NCBI RefSeq assembly: GCF_900107195.1
Contig: NZ_FNPB01000008.1
Span: 62,001 to 126,000 of the forward strand
Length of the DNA: 64,000 nucleotides
Direction: 5' to 3'
From: Halobellus clavatus
Lineage (GTDB): Archaea > Halobacteriota > Halobacteria > Halobacteriales > Haloferacaceae
The position numbers and the translations under genes were made by a program. Below are positions 31,266-39,426 of this stretch, in pieces (positions within the stretch are counted from its first letter, which is position 1; each line of letters begins with the position of its first letter). The notes under the pieces are model-generated. The model did no database searches. It worked only from the letters and a program-made list of their open reading frames with translations, and was not told the DNA's origin.

Positions 31266-33176
31266 ATGCGCGATTGGCTCTCTCACCGCGCCCGGATCGA
31301 GCCGTCCGGCGAGGCGCTCGTCGTCGCTCGCAGCGGCGACGTGTTCACTTTCGAAGACCTCGATACGCTCGTCGAGGACCTCGCCGGCCGCCTCGCCGCG
31401 GCGGGGGTCGGGGCGGGCACACATCTCGGTGCCGTTCTCGACACTCGTCTCGAGTACGTCTGTCTGATCCACGCCGCGATGCGCCTCGGTGCCCGGCTCG
31501 TCCCGATAGGGGACGAACTCACCTCGCGCGAGCTGGCCGGACAGTTCGAGACGGCCGACGTGACTACTGTCGTCTGCGGCGCGGAGACCGAACCGGCCGT
31601 CGTCGACGCCACCGAGGGCCGCGAGACCACAGAGCGCATTTCGGTGTTGAGCGTCGACGATCCGCGAACGTCGGGGGCCGAAGCGCTCTCGCAGATGGAG
31701 CCCGAGACGGTGTCGCCGGCGGACTGGGCGCTCCACGACACGACTCTCGTGCTGTTCACCTCGGGGACGACGGGGGATCCGAAGGCCGTCCAGTTGACGA
31801 TGCAGAACCTCCTCGCGAGCGCGGTCGCGTCCGCGTTCCGGCTGGGGATCGATCCCGACGACCGGTGGCTGGTGACGCTCTCGCTGCACCATATGGGCGG
31901 CATCGCGCCGATCTTGCGGCTCCCGCTGTACGGCACGACGGTCGTCCTCCGGCAGTCGTTCGATGCCGGCGCGACTGTTGACGACATCGACCGTTACGAC
32001 GCCACCGCGACTTCACTGGTGCCGACGATGCTTCGACGGATGCTCGCCCGTCGCGGCACGCTCCCGGACTCGCTCCGGGTCGTGCTGCTCGGCGGCGCAC
32101 CCGCCTCCACCGACCTGATCGAACGCTGTCGAGACTACTCGGTCCCGGTGTACCCGACCTACGGGATGACCGAAACGGCGTCGCAGATCGCCACTGCCAG
32201 CCCAGCCGAGGCGTTCGAGGCGCCCCAGTCGGTGGGCCGGCCCCTGTTTTTCACCGATGTGACCATCGTCGACGAGGCGGGGGCCCCGCTGCCGGCGGGC
32301 GAATCCGGTGAGATCGTCGTCGAGGCGCCGACCGTCACTCCGGGGTACTACGGCGACGCCGACGCGACGGCCGACGCGTTCGGCCAGCACGGCTTTCACA
32401 CCGGCGACGTCGGCGTTCGGGCGGCGGACGGCGTTCTCACGGTGTTGAACCGCCTCGACGATCGGATCCTCACCGGCGGGAAAAACGTCGATCCCGGCGA
32501 AGTCGCCGACGTCCTCCGGGCCCACCCGACAGTCTACGACGCGGCAGTCGTCGGCGTCCCCGACGCCGAGTGGGGCGAGCGCGTCTCCGCGCTCGTGGTC
32601 CCGGAGCGCGCCCACCGGAGCGACGTCGACGCCCACGCGGACGACCCCAGTGATCCCCTGGATCGAGACGACGTGCTCGCGTTCGCCCGCGAGCGACTGG
32701 CGGGATTCAAACTCCCGAAGACGATCGCGATCGCGGAGTCGCTCCCCCGGACGGTCTCGGGCACGATCGATCGAGAAGCCGTGCGGGCGCAGTTCTCTGG
32801 TGCCGACGCGGGCCAGCCCCCGGCAGGCGACGACGGGGCGACGGTCGCCGATGTCGGGGCCGATTCGGTCGCCAATCCCGAGACCCCTGGCGAATCGGCA
32901 TCGGCTGGCGGGTCCGAGTCGGGCAGTGACTCCGAGTCGGGCAGTGACTCCGAGTCGGGCAGTGGCTCCGAGTCTGGCAGTGGATCCGAGTCGGGCAGTG
33001 ACTCCGAGTCGGGCAGTGGCTCCGAGTCTGGCAGTGACTCCGACTCGGACGGTGGCTCCAAGTCGCCCCCCGAGTCTGCATCGCCTGCGGGACCCGAATC
33101 GACCGCTGACCACGACGGAACGCACGAGGAACCAGCGTCGGAGTCTGACGACGGTGAGGACGGCGAAACGCGGTGA
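31266..33176 (+). CDS. menE: o-succinylbenzoate--CoA ligase (MenE-like) with Ser/Asp-repeat tail
   Basis: An ANL-superfamily adenylating ligase of 636 residues. The P-loop-like TLVLFTSGTTGDPK, GMTETAS, FHTGDVG and LDDRILTGGKNVDPGEV motifs are in order. It would activate o-succinylbenzoate in menaquinone synthesis. The C-terminal A10 motif reads LPRTVSGTIDREAV, so the usual catalytic Lys after SG is a Thr. After residue ~515, a ~120-residue acidic tail of repeated GSDSES/GSGSES units is fused, unlike ordinary MenE (about 500 residues). No other men genes are nearby, so a different acyl substrate is possible. Confidence 0.78.
   Translation: MRDWLSHRARIEPSGEALVVARSGDVFTFEDLDTLVEDLAGRLAAAGVGAGTHLGAVLDTRLEYVCLIHAAMRLGARLVPIGDELTSRELAGQFETADVTTVVCGAETEPAVVDATEGRETTERISVLSVDDPRTSGAEALSQMEPETVSPADWALHDTTLVLFTSGTTGDPKAVQLTMQNLLASAVASAFRLGIDPDDRWLVTLSLHHMGGIAPILRLPLYGTTVVLRQSFDAGATVDDIDRYDATATSLVPTMLRRMLARRGTLPDSLRVVLLGGAPASTDLIERCRDYSVPVYPTYGMTETASQIATASPAEAFEAPQSVGRPLFFTDVTIVDEAGAPLPAGESGEIVVEAPTVTPGYYGDADATADAFGQHGFHTGDVGVRAADGVLTVLNRLDDRILTGGKNVDPGEVADVLRAHPTVYDAAVVGVPDAEWGERVSALVVPERAHRSDVDAHADDPSDPLDRDDVLAFARERLAGFKLPKTIAIAESLPRTVSGTIDREAVRAQFSGADAGQPPAGDDGATVADVGADSVANPETPGESASAGGSESGSDSESGSDSESGSGSESGSGSESGSDSESGSGSESGSDSDSDGGSKSPPESASPAGPESTADHDGTHEEPASESDDGEDGETR
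32921..33060. repeat. 18-bp tandem repeats encoding a Ser/Asp/Gly/Glu tail
   Basis: About seven to eight imperfect copies of an 18-bp unit (gggcagtgactccgagtc) in phase with the ligase frame. Variation is mostly gac/ggc in one codon, giving GSDSES or GSGSES. The unit preserves the reading frame. Confidence 0.85.
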
Positions 33177-33225: not shown

Positions 33226-33247
33226 TTTCGCGCCCCCATCCGTGGCT

Positions 33248-34399
33248 ATGGATCTGCTCGACGAATCGGTCGTCCCTGCGCACGCCCACGAGGTGAAGCG
33301 GGAGGCCCGAGAGTTCGCCGACGAACACATCCGACCGAACGCTGAGGAGTACTTCCGATCGGGGGAGTACCCGTGGGACGTTCTGGAGGCGGGAATGGAC
33401 GCGGGACTCGTCGCTCAGGACATCAGCGAAGAGTACGGCGGTCGGGGGCTCGACCTCGAACAGGTACTCGCGATCAACGAGGAGTTCTACGCCGCTGACG
33501 CGGGGATCGCGCTCACGCTGATGCTCGCCTCCTTCGGGTGTGAGATCATCGAGACCTACGGAACCGAAGCACAGAAAGACGAGTATCTCCGCCCGGTCGC
33601 GGCCACCGACCAACTCTCCGGACTCGCGGTGTCGGAACCCCAGACGGGGTCGGATATGGCCGGGATGACCACCACCGCCGAGCGGACTGACGACGGCTGG
33701 GTCCTGAACGGTGAGAAGTACTGGGTGGGGAACGCAGTGGAAGCCGACTGGCTCACCGTCTACGCGAAGACCGGCGACGGCGACGACCGCTACGGCAACT
33801 ACTCGATGTTCATCGTCGAGACGGATACCGCCGGCTACGAGGCCCAGCACATCCCCGAGAAGATCGGGATGCGCGCGTCCAAGCAGGGACACATCATCTT
33901 CGACGATTGCGAGATCCCCGAGGAGAACCTCGTCGGCACCGAGGGCGGCGGATTCTACGTGCTCGCGGACTTCTTCAACCACGGTCGGGTGGTCGTCGGC
34001 GGCCACGGGATCGGTCTCGCGGCTCACGCCATCGAGGAGACCTGGAAGTTCGTCCACGACCGGGAGGCGTTCGGTCGGGACATCGCAGAATTCCAATCGA
34101 CGCAGCACATCCTCGCGGATATGCGAATGGAGTTCGAGGCGGCACGAGCGCTGAACTGGCGCGCCGCCCGGAAGGTCAAACAGGGCGAGGACGCCGGATT
34201 CTGGGCCGCCGCGACGAAGACCAAATCCACGGAGACTGCGGTCGATTGCTCCGAGCGCGGGATGCAACTCCACGGCGGACGCTCGGTGCTCGAAGAGTAC
34301 CCCATCTCGCGTGTGTACCGCGACGCCCGTATTCCGGTGATCTACGAGGGTGCGAACGAGATTCAACGCAATCTCATCTACCGACAGGGCGACATCTGA
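33248..34399 (+). CDS. acd: acyl-CoA dehydrogenase
   Basis: A 383-residue FAD-dependent enzyme introducing the alpha,beta double bond in acyl-CoAs. GLAVSEPQTGSDMAGM (flavin/substrate) and the C-terminal IYEGANEIQRNLIYR, holding the catalytic Glu, are seen, as in short/medium-chain enzymes. The neighbours (mutase, epimerase) suggest a role in branched- or odd-chain catabolism. It has its own promoter. Substrate length cannot be assigned. Confidence 0.92.
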   Translation: MDLLDESVVPAHAHEVKREAREFADEHIRPNAEEYFRSGEYPWDVLEAGMDAGLVAQDISEEYGGRGLDLEQVLAINEEFYAADAGIALTLMLASFGCEIIETYGTEAQKDEYLRPVAATDQLSGLAVSEPQTGSDMAGMTTTAERTDDGWVLNGEKYWVGNAVEADWLTVYAKTGDGDDRYGNYSMFIVETDTAGYEAQHIPEKIGMRASKQGHIIFDDCEIPEENLVGTEGGGFYVLADFFNHGRVVVGGHGIGLAAHAIEETWKFVHDREAFGRDIAEFQSTQHILADMRMEFEAARALNWRAARKVKQGEDAGFWAAATKTKSTETAVDCSERGMQLHGGRSVLEEYPISRVYRDARIPVIYEGANEIQRNLIYRQGDI

Positions 34400-34401
34400 T
34401 C

Positions 34402-34430
34402 GACACCCTAACATTGTAGGGTCCGGTGTC
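34402..34430. promoter_or_regulatory. CCCTA-N6-TAGGG palindrome, copy 1
   Basis: CCCTA at 34406-34410 and TAGGG at 34417-34421 are exact inverted repeats, and an outer gacacc/ggtgtc pair (34402-34407, 34425-34430) flanks them. It lies after the acyl-CoA dehydrogenase stop and before the zinc-ribbon gene. A stem-loop terminator or operator is possible. Its core CCCTAAC-N4-TAGGGT recurs at 36628-36644. Confidence 0.6.
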
Positions 34431-34468
34431 AATGTTGTGGCAGTCCTCGTTTGTAGTACCGAACAACG

Positions 34469-34669
34469 ATGTCCAAGAGCCAGCCCACTGTCACCGAACT
34501 GACCGAGTACTGTGAGACCTGCGACACCCGGACCCCCCACGAGGTCTCGATCGAACTCAAGACCGAGAGCAAAAAGGAGACCAACCGAGCGTTCTCCCGC
34601 GAGCCCTACCGCGTGACCAAGTGTCACACCTGCGGCGACGAGCGAAGCCAGCGGATGAACGACGCCTGA
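34469..34669 (+). CDS. small zinc beta-ribbon protein (DUF7835-like)
   Basis: A 66-residue protein with CETC near the N terminus (residues 15-18) and CHTC near the C terminus, the four cysteines of one zinc ribbon, with a Lys/Glu-rich middle. The name DUF7835 is recalled. Upstream is the palindrome at 34402-34430. The Bat-like gene ends 10 bp downstream on the opposite strand. The role is unknown, but nucleic-acid or protein binding is typical of such ribbons. Confidence 0.75.
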   Translation: MSKSQPTVTELTEYCETCDTRTPHEVSIELKTESKKETNRAFSREPYRVTKCHTCGDERSQRMNDA

Positions 34670-34678
34670 GCGGCGGCG

Positions 34679-36562
34679 TCAGTCGTCGTCGGCCGCGTTG
34701 CCCGCGCGCCGTTCGCCTGCCCGCCTGTCCGCTTCGGTCTCTGCGAAGAACGACTCGATAAGCTTCCGCTCGCCGGCGCGGAGGTGTTCGTGGAACGTCG
34801 GCGCGGCGATTCCCAGCGAGTCTGCGACTTCTTCTGCGGTGCTCCCCCGCGGCCACTCGAAGTACCCCGAGGCCAGCGCCGTCTGCATCACGTCGCGCTG
34901 GCGATCGGTCAGTTTCTCCTCCAGTTGCCGTCGGAACGACGACGGCGACTGCACCGCCGACTCCACCTCGCGCTTCGCCAGCACCGACGTCTCCGGGAAC
35001 TCAGACTCGATCGCGTCCCGGAGGGCCCTGAGGTCCGCCTGGGGCGGGACACTGACGACGAACTCGCCGTCACCCCGCGTCGCACTGAAGGATTCCAGCG
35101 TCGCTCCCAGCGCCGCCACCGTCACGAAGACCGACGCGCCAGTCATCCGAAACTCGAACAGCGCCTCGTCGGCTTCCTCAGAGACCGTCCGCGCGTCGAT
35201 CACCGCATCGAGCGGCGCGACCGCTCCGACGACCGCCGCTGGGTCTCCGTCCTCGACGGCGATGTACGCCGAAACCACGCCCTCGTGCGTTGGTGTGATC
35301 CCCTCGACGCGAACAGTCGTCTCGAACTCCAGTGAGAGATCGATCACGAGGTCCCGAGTGTCGGTGTGGCCGAACACCAGTTCGACCGCCGTATCGGCGT
35401 AGAGCAACTGTTTCGACTCCGCGGCGTTGATGCCGTTGCCCACGGTTTCGCCGATCTCGGCGAGCATCGATCGCTCCTCGGCGGAAATGTCCCCGCGAAC
35501 GTAGATCACGAGCGCCCCGTAGATCGTCTCCCGATAGACGATCGGGACGGCGATCACGCTGTGACCTCCGTCGACCGACGGAGGGGTCGTCAGTGCGCGT
35601 TCGACGTGCGCTTTCGACACCGGCGCGGTGACAACCGACCGCGACTCGATTGCCTCGCGGACGACGGCGGTGGGCTCCCGTGCCGCGGCCGACTGCCCGC
35701 TCGCGTCTCCGCTCGGCCCGTCCTCGCTCGCGAGTGGGTCGCCGATCGACGCAGCAGCCGCCTGACGCTCGATGGCGTCGATCGTCTCGTCGTATCGAGC
35801 GATCCAGGCACCGTCGTACGGTGACGCCTCGAAGGAGTCACAGACCGTCTGTGCGATGTCGTCGCGGGTGGTCGCATCCACCAGCGCCTGATCGATCTGT
35901 CGGAGGAAGCCGTTGATCCGGCGGGCCCGTTCGAGTTGGCGTTCCCGCTCGCGGATCGCCGACTCCTGTTCGGCCCTGAGCTCTTGGACTCGGGCCGTCA
36001 GATCGTCGAGCGCGCCCGGGTCGCCGAGGTCGTGGGCGTCGCGGGATTCGAGGACGGCCTCGGTGGATTCGAGAGCGAAGTACTCGCGCACCCGCGCGTC
36101 GAACTCGGCGCGGACGAGGAGTTCCTCGACGGTCTCCCGGAGGTCCGTCTCGTTGACCGGCTTGACGAGGTACTCGTCGAACGGCATCTCGACGATGTCG
36201 GTGTCGGGCTCGACCGCAGTCATCATCGCGATCCGGCAGTCGTACCCCTGCTCGTCGATCGCCGCGAGGACCTCGTCGCCCGAGAGATCCGGCATCCGAC
36301 GGTCTAAGAGGACCACGTCCACGGCGTCGTCCATCCGGTCGAGCCCCTCCCGTCCGCCGTACGCGACGCGGACGGCGAAATCGTCCCGGAGCCAGTACTC
36401 GCAGGTGTCTGCGAGGTCCCTGTCGTCGTCGACGACGAGCACGACCGGTTCGTCGTCCTCCTCTTCGGCCCGCCCCGTCTGCGCCGCGGGAGCGGCCGCG
36501 CGTTCGTCGGCGGCCCCGCTCGCGCTCTCGATATCGTCGGCTGCGGGACGCTCGGACGGCAT
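34679..36562 (-). CDS. Bat-type response regulator (REC-HalX-GAF-BAT-HTH_10)
   Basis: A 627-residue regulator. After an acidic N terminus comes a receiver domain with VLVVDDDRD, the phospho-acceptor Asp in VVLLDRRMPDLSG, and Lys in YLVKPVNE. A HalX-like segment and coiled coil follow, then a GAF domain, then the bacterio-opsin-activator domain, then a C-terminal HTH_10 (LTDRQRDVMQTALASGYFEW). The gene probably drives light-, oxygen- or redox-related genes, but no bop gene is here. TATA-like ttatttac (minus strand, 36599-36592) and a palindrome at 36628 sit upstream. An in-frame extension to 36673 is not used. Confidence 0.86.
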   Translation of the reverse strand: MPSERPAADDIESASGAADERAAAPAAQTGRAEEEDDEPVVLVVDDDRDLADTCEYWLRDDFAVRVAYGGREGLDRMDDAVDVVLLDRRMPDLSGDEVLAAIDEQGYDCRIAMMTAVEPDTDIVEMPFDEYLVKPVNETDLRETVEELLVRAEFDARVREYFALESTEAVLESRDAHDLGDPGALDDLTARVQELRAEQESAIRERERQLERARRINGFLRQIDQALVDATTRDDIAQTVCDSFEASPYDGAWIARYDETIDAIERQAAAASIGDPLASEDGPSGDASGQSAAAREPTAVVREAIESRSVVTAPVSKAHVERALTTPPSVDGGHSVIAVPIVYRETIYGALVIYVRGDISAEERSMLAEIGETVGNGINAAESKQLLYADTAVELVFGHTDTRDLVIDLSLEFETTVRVEGITPTHEGVVSAYIAVEDGDPAAVVGAVAPLDAVIDARTVSEEADEALFEFRMTGASVFVTVAALGATLESFSATRGDGEFVVSVPPQADLRALRDAIESEFPETSVLAKREVESAVQSPSSFRRQLEEKLTDRQRDVMQTALASGYFEWPRGSTAEEVADSLGIAAPTFHEHLRAGERKLIESFFAETEADRRAGERRAGNAADDD

Positions 36563-36627
36563 CGTATCTCCCGGAAGAAGCGAGTCCACGGGTAAATAAC
36601 TGCCCCTCGGTCGAATCAGCGAACGGT

Positions 36628-36644
36628 CCCTAACGACATAGGGT
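36628..36644. promoter_or_regulatory. CCCTA-N6-TAGGG palindrome, copy 2
   Basis: CCCTA at 36628-36632 and TAGGG at 36639-36643 form an interrupted palindrome between the Bat-like gene (leftward) and the zinc-ribbon gene at 36718 (rightward). The 17-base core CCCTAAC-N4-TAGGGT matches the copy at 34406-34422. It lies 66 bp upstream of the Bat-like start and about 30 bp beyond its TATA box, a place suited to an activator or autoregulatory operator. Confidence 0.6.
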
Positions 36645-36717
36645 TCCGTGTTAGGTACTCCCGTTCCCTCCACCTAAGTGGATATGCACGACCGAACTGT
36701 CACCGAGGTGGGCCCCG

Positions 36718-36885
36718 ATGCCTGAATGCCAGAACTGCGGCTCCTTCGTATCGCGGGACTACGTCCGCGTGTTCGCCCCCGAGGGGCTGAAGGACGCCCG
36801 CGTCTGCCCGCACTGCGAGGACGCGATCCGCGAGGGTGCCGAGGTCCGCGACGCCCGTGCCCGCCGCGTCTCGTCGTCTCCCTGA
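36718..36885 (+). CDS. small zinc-ribbon protein (DUF7563-like)
   Basis: A 55-residue protein starting MPECQNCGSFVSRDYVRVFA with CxxC at residues 4-7 and CPHC at 30-33, one four-cysteine zinc site. DUF7563 is recalled. It is divergent from the Bat-like gene and shares the palindromic intergenic region. An upstream 13-codon frame starting at 36684 overlaps its start; it is treated as coincidence. Confidence 0.72.
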   Translation: MPECQNCGSFVSRDYVRVFAPEGLKDARVCPHCEDAIREGAEVRDARARRVSSSP

Positions 36886-36980: not shown

Positions 36981-37376
36981 TCACTCCCCCCGTCGGCGTT
37001 CCCTGAACGCGTCGAGCGCGAGGAGCACGTACACCGCTCCGAGCGCGCGGACGCCGGTATCGAGCGCGTCGGTCCAGACGACGTCGCCGCCGTCCTCGTA
37101 GAGGAACGCAGCGGCGAACCGACGGTAGAGGCGTGGAGCGATCAAGACGACACCGCCGAATATCCCGGTGAGATTCAGCATCCAGGCGTAGGCTCGTCCG
37201 TCGGTGCGGCTGGCGGCAGCCACGACGACGCCCTCCGCTCGTATCGCCGACGCGGCCCACGACCGCCGCGTTCGGTCGTCCGCGTTCTCGACGGCGAGGG
37301 TCTCGAATACGTCGAGTAGCCGGCCCGGCACCGCAGCGGCGAGACACCCGAGGAGACCGATGAGTGATCGGATCAT
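36981..37376 (-). CDS. conserved haloarchaeal small membrane protein
   Basis: A 131-residue protein with an N-terminal hydrophobic segment (residues 2-18), a middle segment (about 67-80) and another at about 107-122. Phrases FETLAVENADD and RAEGVVVAAASRTDGRAYAWM are characteristic of a conserved haloarchaeal family. No catalytic motif. It is convergent with the zinc-ribbon gene and divergent from the MutS-like gene. Confidence 0.7.
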   Translation of the reverse strand: MIRSLIGLLGCLAAAVPGRLLDVFETLAVENADDRTRRSWAASAIRAEGVVVAAASRTDGRAYAWMLNLTGIFGGVVLIAPRLYRRFAAAFLYEDGGDVVWTDALDTGVRALGAVYVLLALDAFRERRRGE

Positions 37377-37626: not shown

Positions 37627-39426
37627 ATGCGACTGGAGGACTACTGGGGCGTCGGCCCGAAGACGAGCGAGCGACTCCGCGAGTCGATTGGTGTCGAGGC
37701 AGCGGTCGCGGCCATCGAAGACGCCGACATCAGGGCGCTCGCGGACGCCGGACTCCCGCGGGGGCGCGCGGTTCGCATTCTCCGACGAGCCAACGGCGCG
37801 GACGGGATCGAGACGCTCGGGACGCGCGACGCCCGCGACGTCTACGACGACCTGCTCTCGCTCGCGAGCGAATACGCGCTCACCCGACACGCGGCCGACC
37901 GCGTCCGCGTGATGACGCCGCTTTCCACCATCGACGAACGAGAGACGCGACTCGACCGGGTTCTCGACGCGCGCGACGCGTGGCTGGGACTCGACGAGGC
38001 CGCCCGCGAAGCGATCACGTCGGCCTTCGACGCGTACGATCGCGAGGACGGTACCGACCGCGCAGCCGTCGAGACGGCGCTGGAACTCCGCGACGCGGGG
38101 CTTCGCGGGGGGACGTTCGCCGCGCTCGACGACCTCGACGACGACGCGCTGCAGGCAGCTGCCGAGGCGCTCGGCACCATCGATGCGGACGGCCGCGTCG
38201 CCGCCGGCGCGGACGAGGAACTCGACCGCCTGCGCCAGCGGCGCGACGCCGTCGCCGAACTGGAGACGAACGCGCTCGACGTTCTGGAATCGATCAGAGA
38301 GCGCGGCGTCCGCGACTTCGAGGAGTTCCGCGCCGCTTTCGTCGAGTACGTGGCCAGCGAGGCCGACGTGCGCCGGGGACGCGTCGAGGCCGCCGTCGCC
38401 GGCGATGCCCACGACGAGGCCGACTTCGCCGCCACCTCGCTTCGCGCGCTTCGGTCGGAACTCGACGATGAGGTCGACGAGCGGGAGGCGACCGTCGCCG
38501 CTCAGCTCGAAGAGTCGATCGAGACGGCACGCGAGGGCGTCGAGACTGCGGTCTCGGCGGTTTCGGACATCGCGTTGGACCTCTCGCTGGGGCGGTTCGC
38601 AGCAGCGCACGATCTCACACGCCCGCGACTCGTCGACGACGGCCTCGCGGTCGTCGGGGCGCGGAATCTCACGCTCTCGGGCGAGGTGCAACCCGTGACC
38701 TACGCCATCGGCGATCACGACCTGGACGGCCCGAGTGCCGGGGACGCGTCCGCGCCCCGGGCTGACGCCTCGACCCGTCGTGAGAGTCCGCAAACGCCAC
38801 CGACCGGCGACCGAGTCGCGGTTCTCACCGGCGCGAACTCCGGCGGGAAGACGACGCTCCTGGAGACGCTCGCGCAGGTCGCCCTGCTGGCGGCGATGGG
38901 ACTGCCGGTCCCCGCGTCCGACGCGGCCGTCGGCCGGTTCGATACGATCGTCTTCCACCGTCGACACGCCAGTTTCAACGCCGGCGTGTTGGAATCGACG
39001 CTGAAGTCGATCGTCCCGCCGCTCTCGACGGGCGAGCGGACCCTGATGCTCGTCGACGAGTTCGAGGCGATCACCGAACCCGGTCGGGCCGCCGATCTCC
39101 TGAACGGACTCGTCGATCTGACGGTCGACCAGGAGGCACTCGGCGTCTACGTCACCCACCTGGCAGACGACCTCAGTCCGCTCCCGCCCGAGGCGCGCAT
39201 CGACGGTATCTTCGCGGAAGGATTGACCGAGGACCTCGCTCTGGAAGTCGACTATCAGCCGCGGTTCGGCACCGTCGGAAAGTCGACACCGGAGTTCATC
39301 GTCTCCCGACTCGTGGCCAACGCACGCGATCGGGCGGAGCGCCGTGGGTTCGAGGCGCTGGCGGCCGCCGTCGGCGAAGAGGCCGTCCAGCGGACGCTCT
39401 CGGACGCACAGTGGTCGAATGATTGA
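37627..39426 (+). CDS. MutS-family ATPase (haloarchaeal MutS5-like)
   Basis: A 599-residue protein with an N-terminal helix-hairpin-helix (YWGVGPKTSERLRESIG), a helical lever region, and a C-terminal MutS ATPase with Walker A LTGANSGGKTTLLETL, Walker B LMLVDEFEA and YVTHLADDL. The mismatch-recognition domain I of MutS1 is absent, so it is not a mismatch-recognition MutS; MutS2/MutS5-type roles in recombination or junction binding are more likely. The stop codon is the first base overlap of the 82-bp element at 39426-39507. Confidence 0.85.
   Translation: MRLEDYWGVGPKTSERLRESIGVEAAVAAIEDADIRALADAGLPRGRAVRILRRANGADGIETLGTRDARDVYDDLLSLASEYALTRHAADRVRVMTPLSTIDERETRLDRVLDARDAWLGLDEAAREAITSAFDAYDREDGTDRAAVETALELRDAGLRGGTFAALDDLDDDALQAAAEALGTIDADGRVAAGADEELDRLRQRRDAVAELETNALDVLESIRERGVRDFEEFRAAFVEYVASEADVRRGRVEAAVAGDAHDEADFAATSLRALRSELDDEVDEREATVAAQLEESIETAREGVETAVSAVSDIALDLSLGRFAAAHDLTRPRLVDDGLAVVGARNLTLSGEVQPVTYAIGDHDLDGPSAGDASAPRADASTRRESPQTPPTGDRVAVLTGANSGGKTTLLETLAQVALLAAMGLPVPASDAAVGRFDTIVFHRRHASFNAGVLESTLKSIVPPLSTGERTLMLVDEFEAITEPGRAADLLNGLVDLTVDQEALGVYVTHLADDLSPLPPEARIDGIFAEGLTEDLALEVDYQPRFGTVGKSTPEFIVSRLVANARDRAERRGFEALAAAVGEEAVQRTLSDAQWSND

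Follow-up and report, generated by a model that had tools for sequence, protein, structure and literature searches.

The stretch of DNA analyzed here, which we call the window, comprises 64,000 nucleotides of the Halobellus clavatus genome (assembly GCF_900107195.1; contig NZ_FNPB01000008.1, positions 62,001 to 126,000), which totals 3.75 Mb in 30 contigs. A few nucleotides past the stop codon of a plus-strand acyl-CoA dehydrogenase gene (33242-34399), the window has a palindromic site (CCCTAACATTGTAGGGT; site 1, 34406 to 34422, plus strand), situated 63 nt ahead of the start codon (ATG) of the gene for a 66-residue zinc-ribbon protein of the DUF7835 family (34469 to 34669, plus strand; Pfam PF25205, E value of 2.2e-30). 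Between the two is a T-N-A element, which is either a TATA-like box or a third half-site (34428 to 34433, plus strand). The next gene, on the minus strand (34679 to 36562), encodes a Bat-type response regulator of 627 residues if read from the ATG at 36562. Beyond it lie a putative TATA box for the regulator (TATTTA on the minus strand; TAAATA region, 36593 to 36598), with AAATA present at this place in all 12 of the Halobellus-type loci compared (the window and L093-L103), and a second palindromic site between the regulator and DUF7563 genes (CCCTAACGACATAGGGT; site 2, 36628 to 36644, plus strand). Site 2 is followed by a second conserved element (CCGTGTTAGG, 36646 to 36655, plus strand), which may be a third half-site (GTTAGG) or a TATA-like box and recurs as CGTGTTAGG in the same 12 loci. 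The gene for a 55-residue DUF7563 zinc-ribbon protein (36718 to 36885, plus strand; Pfam PF24444, E value of 2.1e-15) comes next, followed by genes for an unknown protein of 131 residues (36981-37376, minus strand) and a MutS_V-like ATPase (37627-39426, plus strand), whose Pfam MutS_V score of 29.9 bits is just under the cut-off of 30.2. Both copies of CCCTAAC-N4-TAGGGT, which the original prediction had placed at sites 1 and 2, are exact to the base.

The longest open reading frame of the regulator begins with a GTG at 36673, which would place site 2 within it; the ATG at 36562, 66 bp from site 2, is the more likely start. On the opposite strand, a small frame of 13 codons (MHDRTVTEVGPDA, closed by a stop; 36684 to 36725, plus strand) begins 34 nt before the DUF7563 start and overlaps it. 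Such a frame recurs, with varying sequence, in all 12 Halobellus-type loci, and its GAGGTG codons could serve also as a ribosome site, which suggests translational coupling with DUF7563. Upstream of the acyl-CoA dehydrogenase gene, an AMP-binding enzyme (31266-33176) carries a long low-complexity SGSES/SGSDSE repeat tail beyond its C-terminal domain.

The regulator and its relatives

Pfam matches place a receiver, a HalX, a GAF, a BAT, and an HTH_10 domain in that order in the regulator; a match to the PAS domain was not found in it at E values of up to 0.001. The protein is thus of Bat type without being Bat itself: its orthologs and their tree, along with its domains, make it an HVO_1357-type response regulator with the architecture receiver-HalX-GAF-BAT-HTH_10. 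Its domains and gene order suggest that it is orthologous to HVO_1357 of Haloferax volcanii, which is described as having the same five domains and as giving rise to hypermotility upon transposon insertion (PMC7824242). The genes reported around HVO_1357 code for the sensor kinase HVO_1356, the receiver protein HVO_1358, a CPxCG zinc finger protein, and MutS5b (PMC7824242), and the Haloferax loci compared here show the same neighborhood of kinase, receiver protein, zinc finger protein, and MutS5b. The HVO_1356-HVO_1359 locus resembles the present one in the domain order of the regulator, the receiver protein, the small zinc finger protein, and the MutS5b-type neighbor; in the window the last two are the small CPxCG zinc finger gene (DUF7835, 34469) and the MutS_V-like gene (37627). 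By family type and position, the DUF7835 protein is the probable counterpart of HVO_1359, the CPxCG zinc finger protein near HVO_1357 (PMC7824242, PMC12240190). The H. volcanii locus differs from the Halobellus one in possessing a kinase, whereas the latter lacks a kinase and has DUF7563. No sensor kinase was found beside the regulator in the window or in the other Halobellus-type loci, and there is no room for one between the regulator and site 2; in contrast, a kinase gene heads the regulator operon in loci of the Halogeometricum, Haloferax, and Haloquadratum types (36562-36718 of the window compared with L104, L108, and L122).

A further parallel is offered by the Bat/Brz system of Halobacterium salinarum, where an HTH_10 regulator likewise has a small CPxCG zinc finger gene nearby. 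Two homologs of Bat in H. salinarum are reported also to have small zinc finger genes that are adjacent or one gene off (PMC2253796). Bat itself carries PAS and GAF domains and controls bop and the retinal genes, whereas the present regulator has receiver and HalX domains in place of PAS. An imperfect inverted repeat is described as overlapping the brz and brp promoters (PMC2253796). An upstream activator sequence has been described 5' to bop, brp, and crtB1 in Halobacterium. Unlike in the Bat-Brz system, both zinc-ribbon genes here themselves bear the site.

Distribution and conservation of the palindrome

The original prediction held that the window has no further copy of the palindrome, and this extends to the entire genome: across all 30 contigs, there are two exact matches and none with a single mismatch, so that the palindrome is not a frequent motif scattered at random places. 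With up to two mismatches, the window yields three matches (one being site 1 in the reverse reading) versus 0.32 expected, a count reached by none of 100 shuffled versions. The genome as a whole yields 16 such matches in total versus 36 for a reversed control pattern, and the two-mismatch matches, being rarer than those of the control, are taken to be noise. In the 17 genomes of the genus set (g1, which takes in Halobellus species along with Haloquadratum walsbyi J07HQW1 [G015] and J07HQW2 [G016]), CCCTA-N6-TAGGG occurs 24 times versus 34 for the reversed control; 22 copies are at the regulator locus, one lies before the DUF7835 gene of J07HQW2, and one is elsewhere, in a genome that is 68% complete (G011). 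Across the family, an exact copy is present in 38 of 170 genomes. These include 26 genomes out of the 36 that were assigned a close regulator (14 from g1, 15 from g9, which takes in Haloferax, 5 from g10, which takes in Halogeometricum, and 2 from g16, a further genus) and 12 of the remaining 134 (G011, G016, and ten with stray copies), among which are the 22 genomes that fall outside the regulator screen (148 of 170 covered). The stray exact palindromes in regulator-less genomes (L179-L183 and L191-L195, with L180 and L181 corresponding to one place in two closely related genomes) have no context in common with the regulator locus.

The same picture emerges from R1, a 32-position model built from sequence only, with the Haloferax DUF7835 sites excluded except that of L132. 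At E values of up to 3, it gave 27 matches in 14 genomes of the genus, all 27 at the regulator locus; the training sites are matched by construction, and the informative part is that nothing else was matched in the genus. In 14 genomes of Halogeometricum, g16, and Haloferax, it gave 29 matches, of which 27 fall at the locus or at a DUF7344 gene (one of these 27 being the second-strand reading of a DUF7344 site) and two elsewhere. A wider regulon with this site, which we also considered, is unlikely in the genus, where R1 had no further match and where, in the H. clavatus genome, matches with up to two mismatches fall below the control. As separate observations, a site with CCCTAAATCTATAGGG (L177, 4142; L178, 4381) lies directly before a 385-residue gene, away from the regulator, in two close Haloferax genomes, and a one-mismatch match was seen away from the regulator locus in one genome (G009:C1:159550, L112).

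The palindrome is retained upstream of the orthologs of both zinc-ribbon genes: in all 12 Halobellus-type loci, NCCTA-N6-TAGGN lies 63 to 64 nt before the DUF7835 ATG and 90 nt before that of DUF7563. The columns of its arms average 1.92 and 1.88 bits in these 12 loci, compared with averages of 0.30 and 0.42 over the 40 nt flanking it on the left. Since the loci are related by descent, counts across them are not independent. On a broader scale, the best palindrome is at the same place in 36 of 36 DUF7835 loci of Halobellus, Haloquadratum, Halogeometricum, g16, and Haloferax (a count that omits L107, L112, and L127-L131, which lack a DUF7835 match). Its ten core bases have no mismatch in 13 of these loci, one in 10, two in 10, and three in 3, and only 1% of 5,000 random 100-nt windows from the same loci reach one mismatch or fewer. 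The 13 sites with two or three mismatches are all from Haloferax, where the left arm has decayed to CCAAA; the Haloferax kinase-promoter site retains CCTA and TAGG. In an alignment of 47 of the 56 collected sites, with near duplicates omitted, CCTA and TAGG are invariant because the sites were selected by them, but an A 25 nt after the start of the palindrome is also invariant in 47 of 47. This A belongs to the T-N-A element, which reads TTA in the DUF7563 and kinase promoters, mostly TCAAT, TGATT, TGAAT, or TCTAT before DUF7835, and mostly TGATA-like before DUF7344. The element could act as a weak TATA box, or else as a third half-site where the promoter is divergent.

Site 2 had been assigned to the regulator promoter. 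It does lie in the divergent region shared by the regulator and DUF7563, and the palindrome heads the regulator or kinase-regulator operon in all Halobellus-type loci and in nearly all Haloferax and Halogeometricum loci examined, being conserved in the operon promoter along with the regulator, as would befit autoregulation; in L109, it was not found at the operon start. Its position, however, is locked to the two zinc-ribbon genes rather than to the regulator's own TATA box: the spacing between the palindrome and this putative box varies from 22 to 40 nt in the 12 Halobellus-type loci. Eleven of these 12 spacings (seven computed and five counted by eye from the sequence) fall at 29 to 32 or 39 to 40 nt. 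These two classes are about one helical turn apart, a hint of autoregulation that is only suggestive. In one of these loci (L103, 4938-4978), a second palindrome (CCCTACCCGTTTAGGG) adjoins the first one, close to the TATA box of the regulator.

Coupling of the palindrome to the regulator

The DUF7563 family allows the site to be compared with and without the regulator, for it is widespread, being found in 48 of 51 genomes outside g1, g9, g10, and g16. Among DUF7563 promoters linked to the regulator, 19 of 22 have the palindrome with at most one mismatch within 200 nt (L131 being scored as a miss with its site just past this limit), and two more have it with two mismatches. In 30 control promoters, namely, 29 from genomes without an assigned close regulator and one from a paralog in G085, none has it with at most one mismatch within 200 nt, and two have it with two. 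Similarly, the palindrome is found in none of five distant DUF7835 loci (Halococcus, Halospeciosus, Natronococcus, and Haladaptatus) that are regulator-less in the stretch examined. In two genomes with a more divergent regulator (36 to 38% identical) and another gene order (G082 and G085), variants of the palindrome are present by DUF7563 and also between the regulator and the second receiver gene. Near the genes for the regulators of L187-L190, which are 39 to 41% identical and have a very similar recognition helix, no such palindrome was found, nor was any other palindrome seen in common among them; a comparison of recognition helices does not separate palindrome-bearing from palindrome-free regulators. 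Genes for zinc ribbons of the DUF7129 family were observed near the receiver-BAT-HTH_10 regulators in two of these loci (L187, 10536-10745; L188, 7458-7622), a hint that the pairing of small zinc ribbons with Bat-type regulators is more widespread.

A third target is suggested by a Halogeometricum gene of the DUF7344 family (Pfam PF24035; L226-L230), which has the palindrome 95 to 96 nt before its start in all five genomes (with 0, 1, 1, 2, and 1 mismatches). In G058 and G055, some 230 kb separate it from the regulator; in the remaining three genomes, the two are on different contigs. In g16, the palindrome is 99 to 101 nt before the aligned start of the DUF7344 gene in two of two genomes (with one and two mismatches), and none of 22 weaker DUF7344-type loci has it with one mismatch or fewer; L239, which could not be usefully aligned, is left out of this promoter comparison. 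This conserved site, unlinked to the regulator, argues for a diffusible binder acting in trans and against roles as RNA or terminator.

A candidate operator and its possible regulon

Taking these findings together, we propose that CCCTAAC-N4-TAGGG is probably the operator of the adjacent HVO_1357-type response regulator, and that the regulator is the protein that would bind it. This proposal is supported by the conservation of the sites at both promoters, their near absence elsewhere, their association with loci that carry the regulator, as seen in the DUF7563 genes that lack both the regulator and the site, and the unlinked third site. Points against it are the perfect site that H. walsbyi J07HQW2 retains after losing the regulator, the palindrome-free regulators of L187-L190 with their very similar recognition helix, the decayed left arms of the Haloferax DUF7835 sites, and the variable spacing to the regulator TATA box. 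The best reading of the locus is that of a candidate two-promoter regulon comprising the zinc-ribbon genes and the regulator's own operon. A dimer of the regulator would bind the two CCTAA-type half-sites through its C-terminal HTH_10 domains, most likely in a phosphorylation-dependent manner, and would be placed about 8 bp upstream of the T-N-A element, which is probably a weak TATA box unless it is a third half-site. From there it would control initiation at the DUF7835 and DUF7563 promoters and, via the shared divergent region, that of its own gene or of the kinase-regulator operon. As the palindrome is just upstream of a TATA-like element, our guess as to the direction of control is that the zinc-ribbon genes would be activated. 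As the kinase gene has been lost or moved in Halobellus, its part would have to fall to a different kinase in that group.

The most serious alternative, which we nevertheless consider unlikely, is that the palindrome is a true operator of some other protein, such as one of the zinc-ribbon proteins encoded nearby, the second receiver protein, or a transcription factor whose gene is unlinked. The small zinc finger protein Brz is reported to regulate bop transcription in Halobacterium (PMC2253796), which lends this some weight, as does the spacing of the site to the zinc-ribbon genes rather than to the regulator TATA box. A further point in its favor comes from H. walsbyi J07HQW2 (L106), where the block of DUF7563, kinase, regulator, and receiver genes has been lost, leaving remnants of 42 to 52 nt at 79 to 83% identity, while the DUF7835 site is perfect, with its arms identical to both relatives at 10 of 10 positions and its left flank at 15 and 16 of 61. 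This orphan site could be accounted for by a recent loss of the regulator, which the remaining identity of the remnants fits, but equally by a second protein that binds it. Against this alternative, no other gene matches the constancy of the regulator across the palindrome-bearing loci: DUF7835 was not found at the G082 and G085 loci, DUF7563 was not found at the Haloferax loci, and the kinase was not found at the Halobellus loci. The absence of the site, at up to one mismatch, from the 30 control DUF7563 promoters also speaks against it.

Far less probable is an RNA element or a terminator hairpin, for instance one serving the acyl-CoA dehydrogenase transcript, as the closeness of site 1 to the stop codon of that gene might suggest. 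The site persists at L099 and L102, two loci where we found no acyl-CoA dehydrogenase gene, it also occurs in a divergent promoter and upstream of DUF7344, an unlinked gene, its spacing is fixed relative to the downstream gene, and its stem is of only 5 bp with no U run after it. Least credible is chance or common ancestry without function: the loci are indeed related by descent, but the arms are invariant while the left flanks are randomized, the palindrome is nearly absent elsewhere in the genomes and is borne by three unrelated genes, and chance occurrence as such is ruled out by the genome-wide rarity, the conservation pattern, and the R1 scan.

In conditioned (quorum) medium, HVO_1356 of H. 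volcanii is reported to be less abundant and HVO_1359 more abundant (PMC12240190), as might be expected if the two promoters are affected in opposite ways. HVO_1359 is also said to belong to a cluster of proteins thought to act early in the disk transition (PMC10869688). The account of its deletion gives two phenotypes, glycerol loss and, in brackets, bile acid loss, with none in swarming or biofilm (PMC6562870), which does not favor DUF7835 alone as the motility effector. Our literature searches for HVO_1357, for HVO_1359, and for CCCTAAC/TAGGGT in haloarchaea brought up, in the portions of the literature they covered, no report of a target, DNA site, or operator.

More tentatively, we suggest that the regulator might govern a miniature, near-private regulon, with the two zinc-ribbon microproteins and its own operon as the only recognizable targets, in which the zinc-ribbon outputs might relay a motility or quorum signal, and that Bat-Brz could be one case of a general, operator-controlled pairing of Bat-type regulators with zinc ribbons. 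A link between Bat-type regulators and zinc finger proteins was suspected by the authors of the Brz study, who left it open (PMC2253796). The candidate operator would give a concrete form to such a link between the Bat-type regulators and the many small zinc finger proteins of archaea, and, being a defined element of 16 bp with two to three target promoters, it makes the HVO_1357-type regulator directly testable in H. volcanii.
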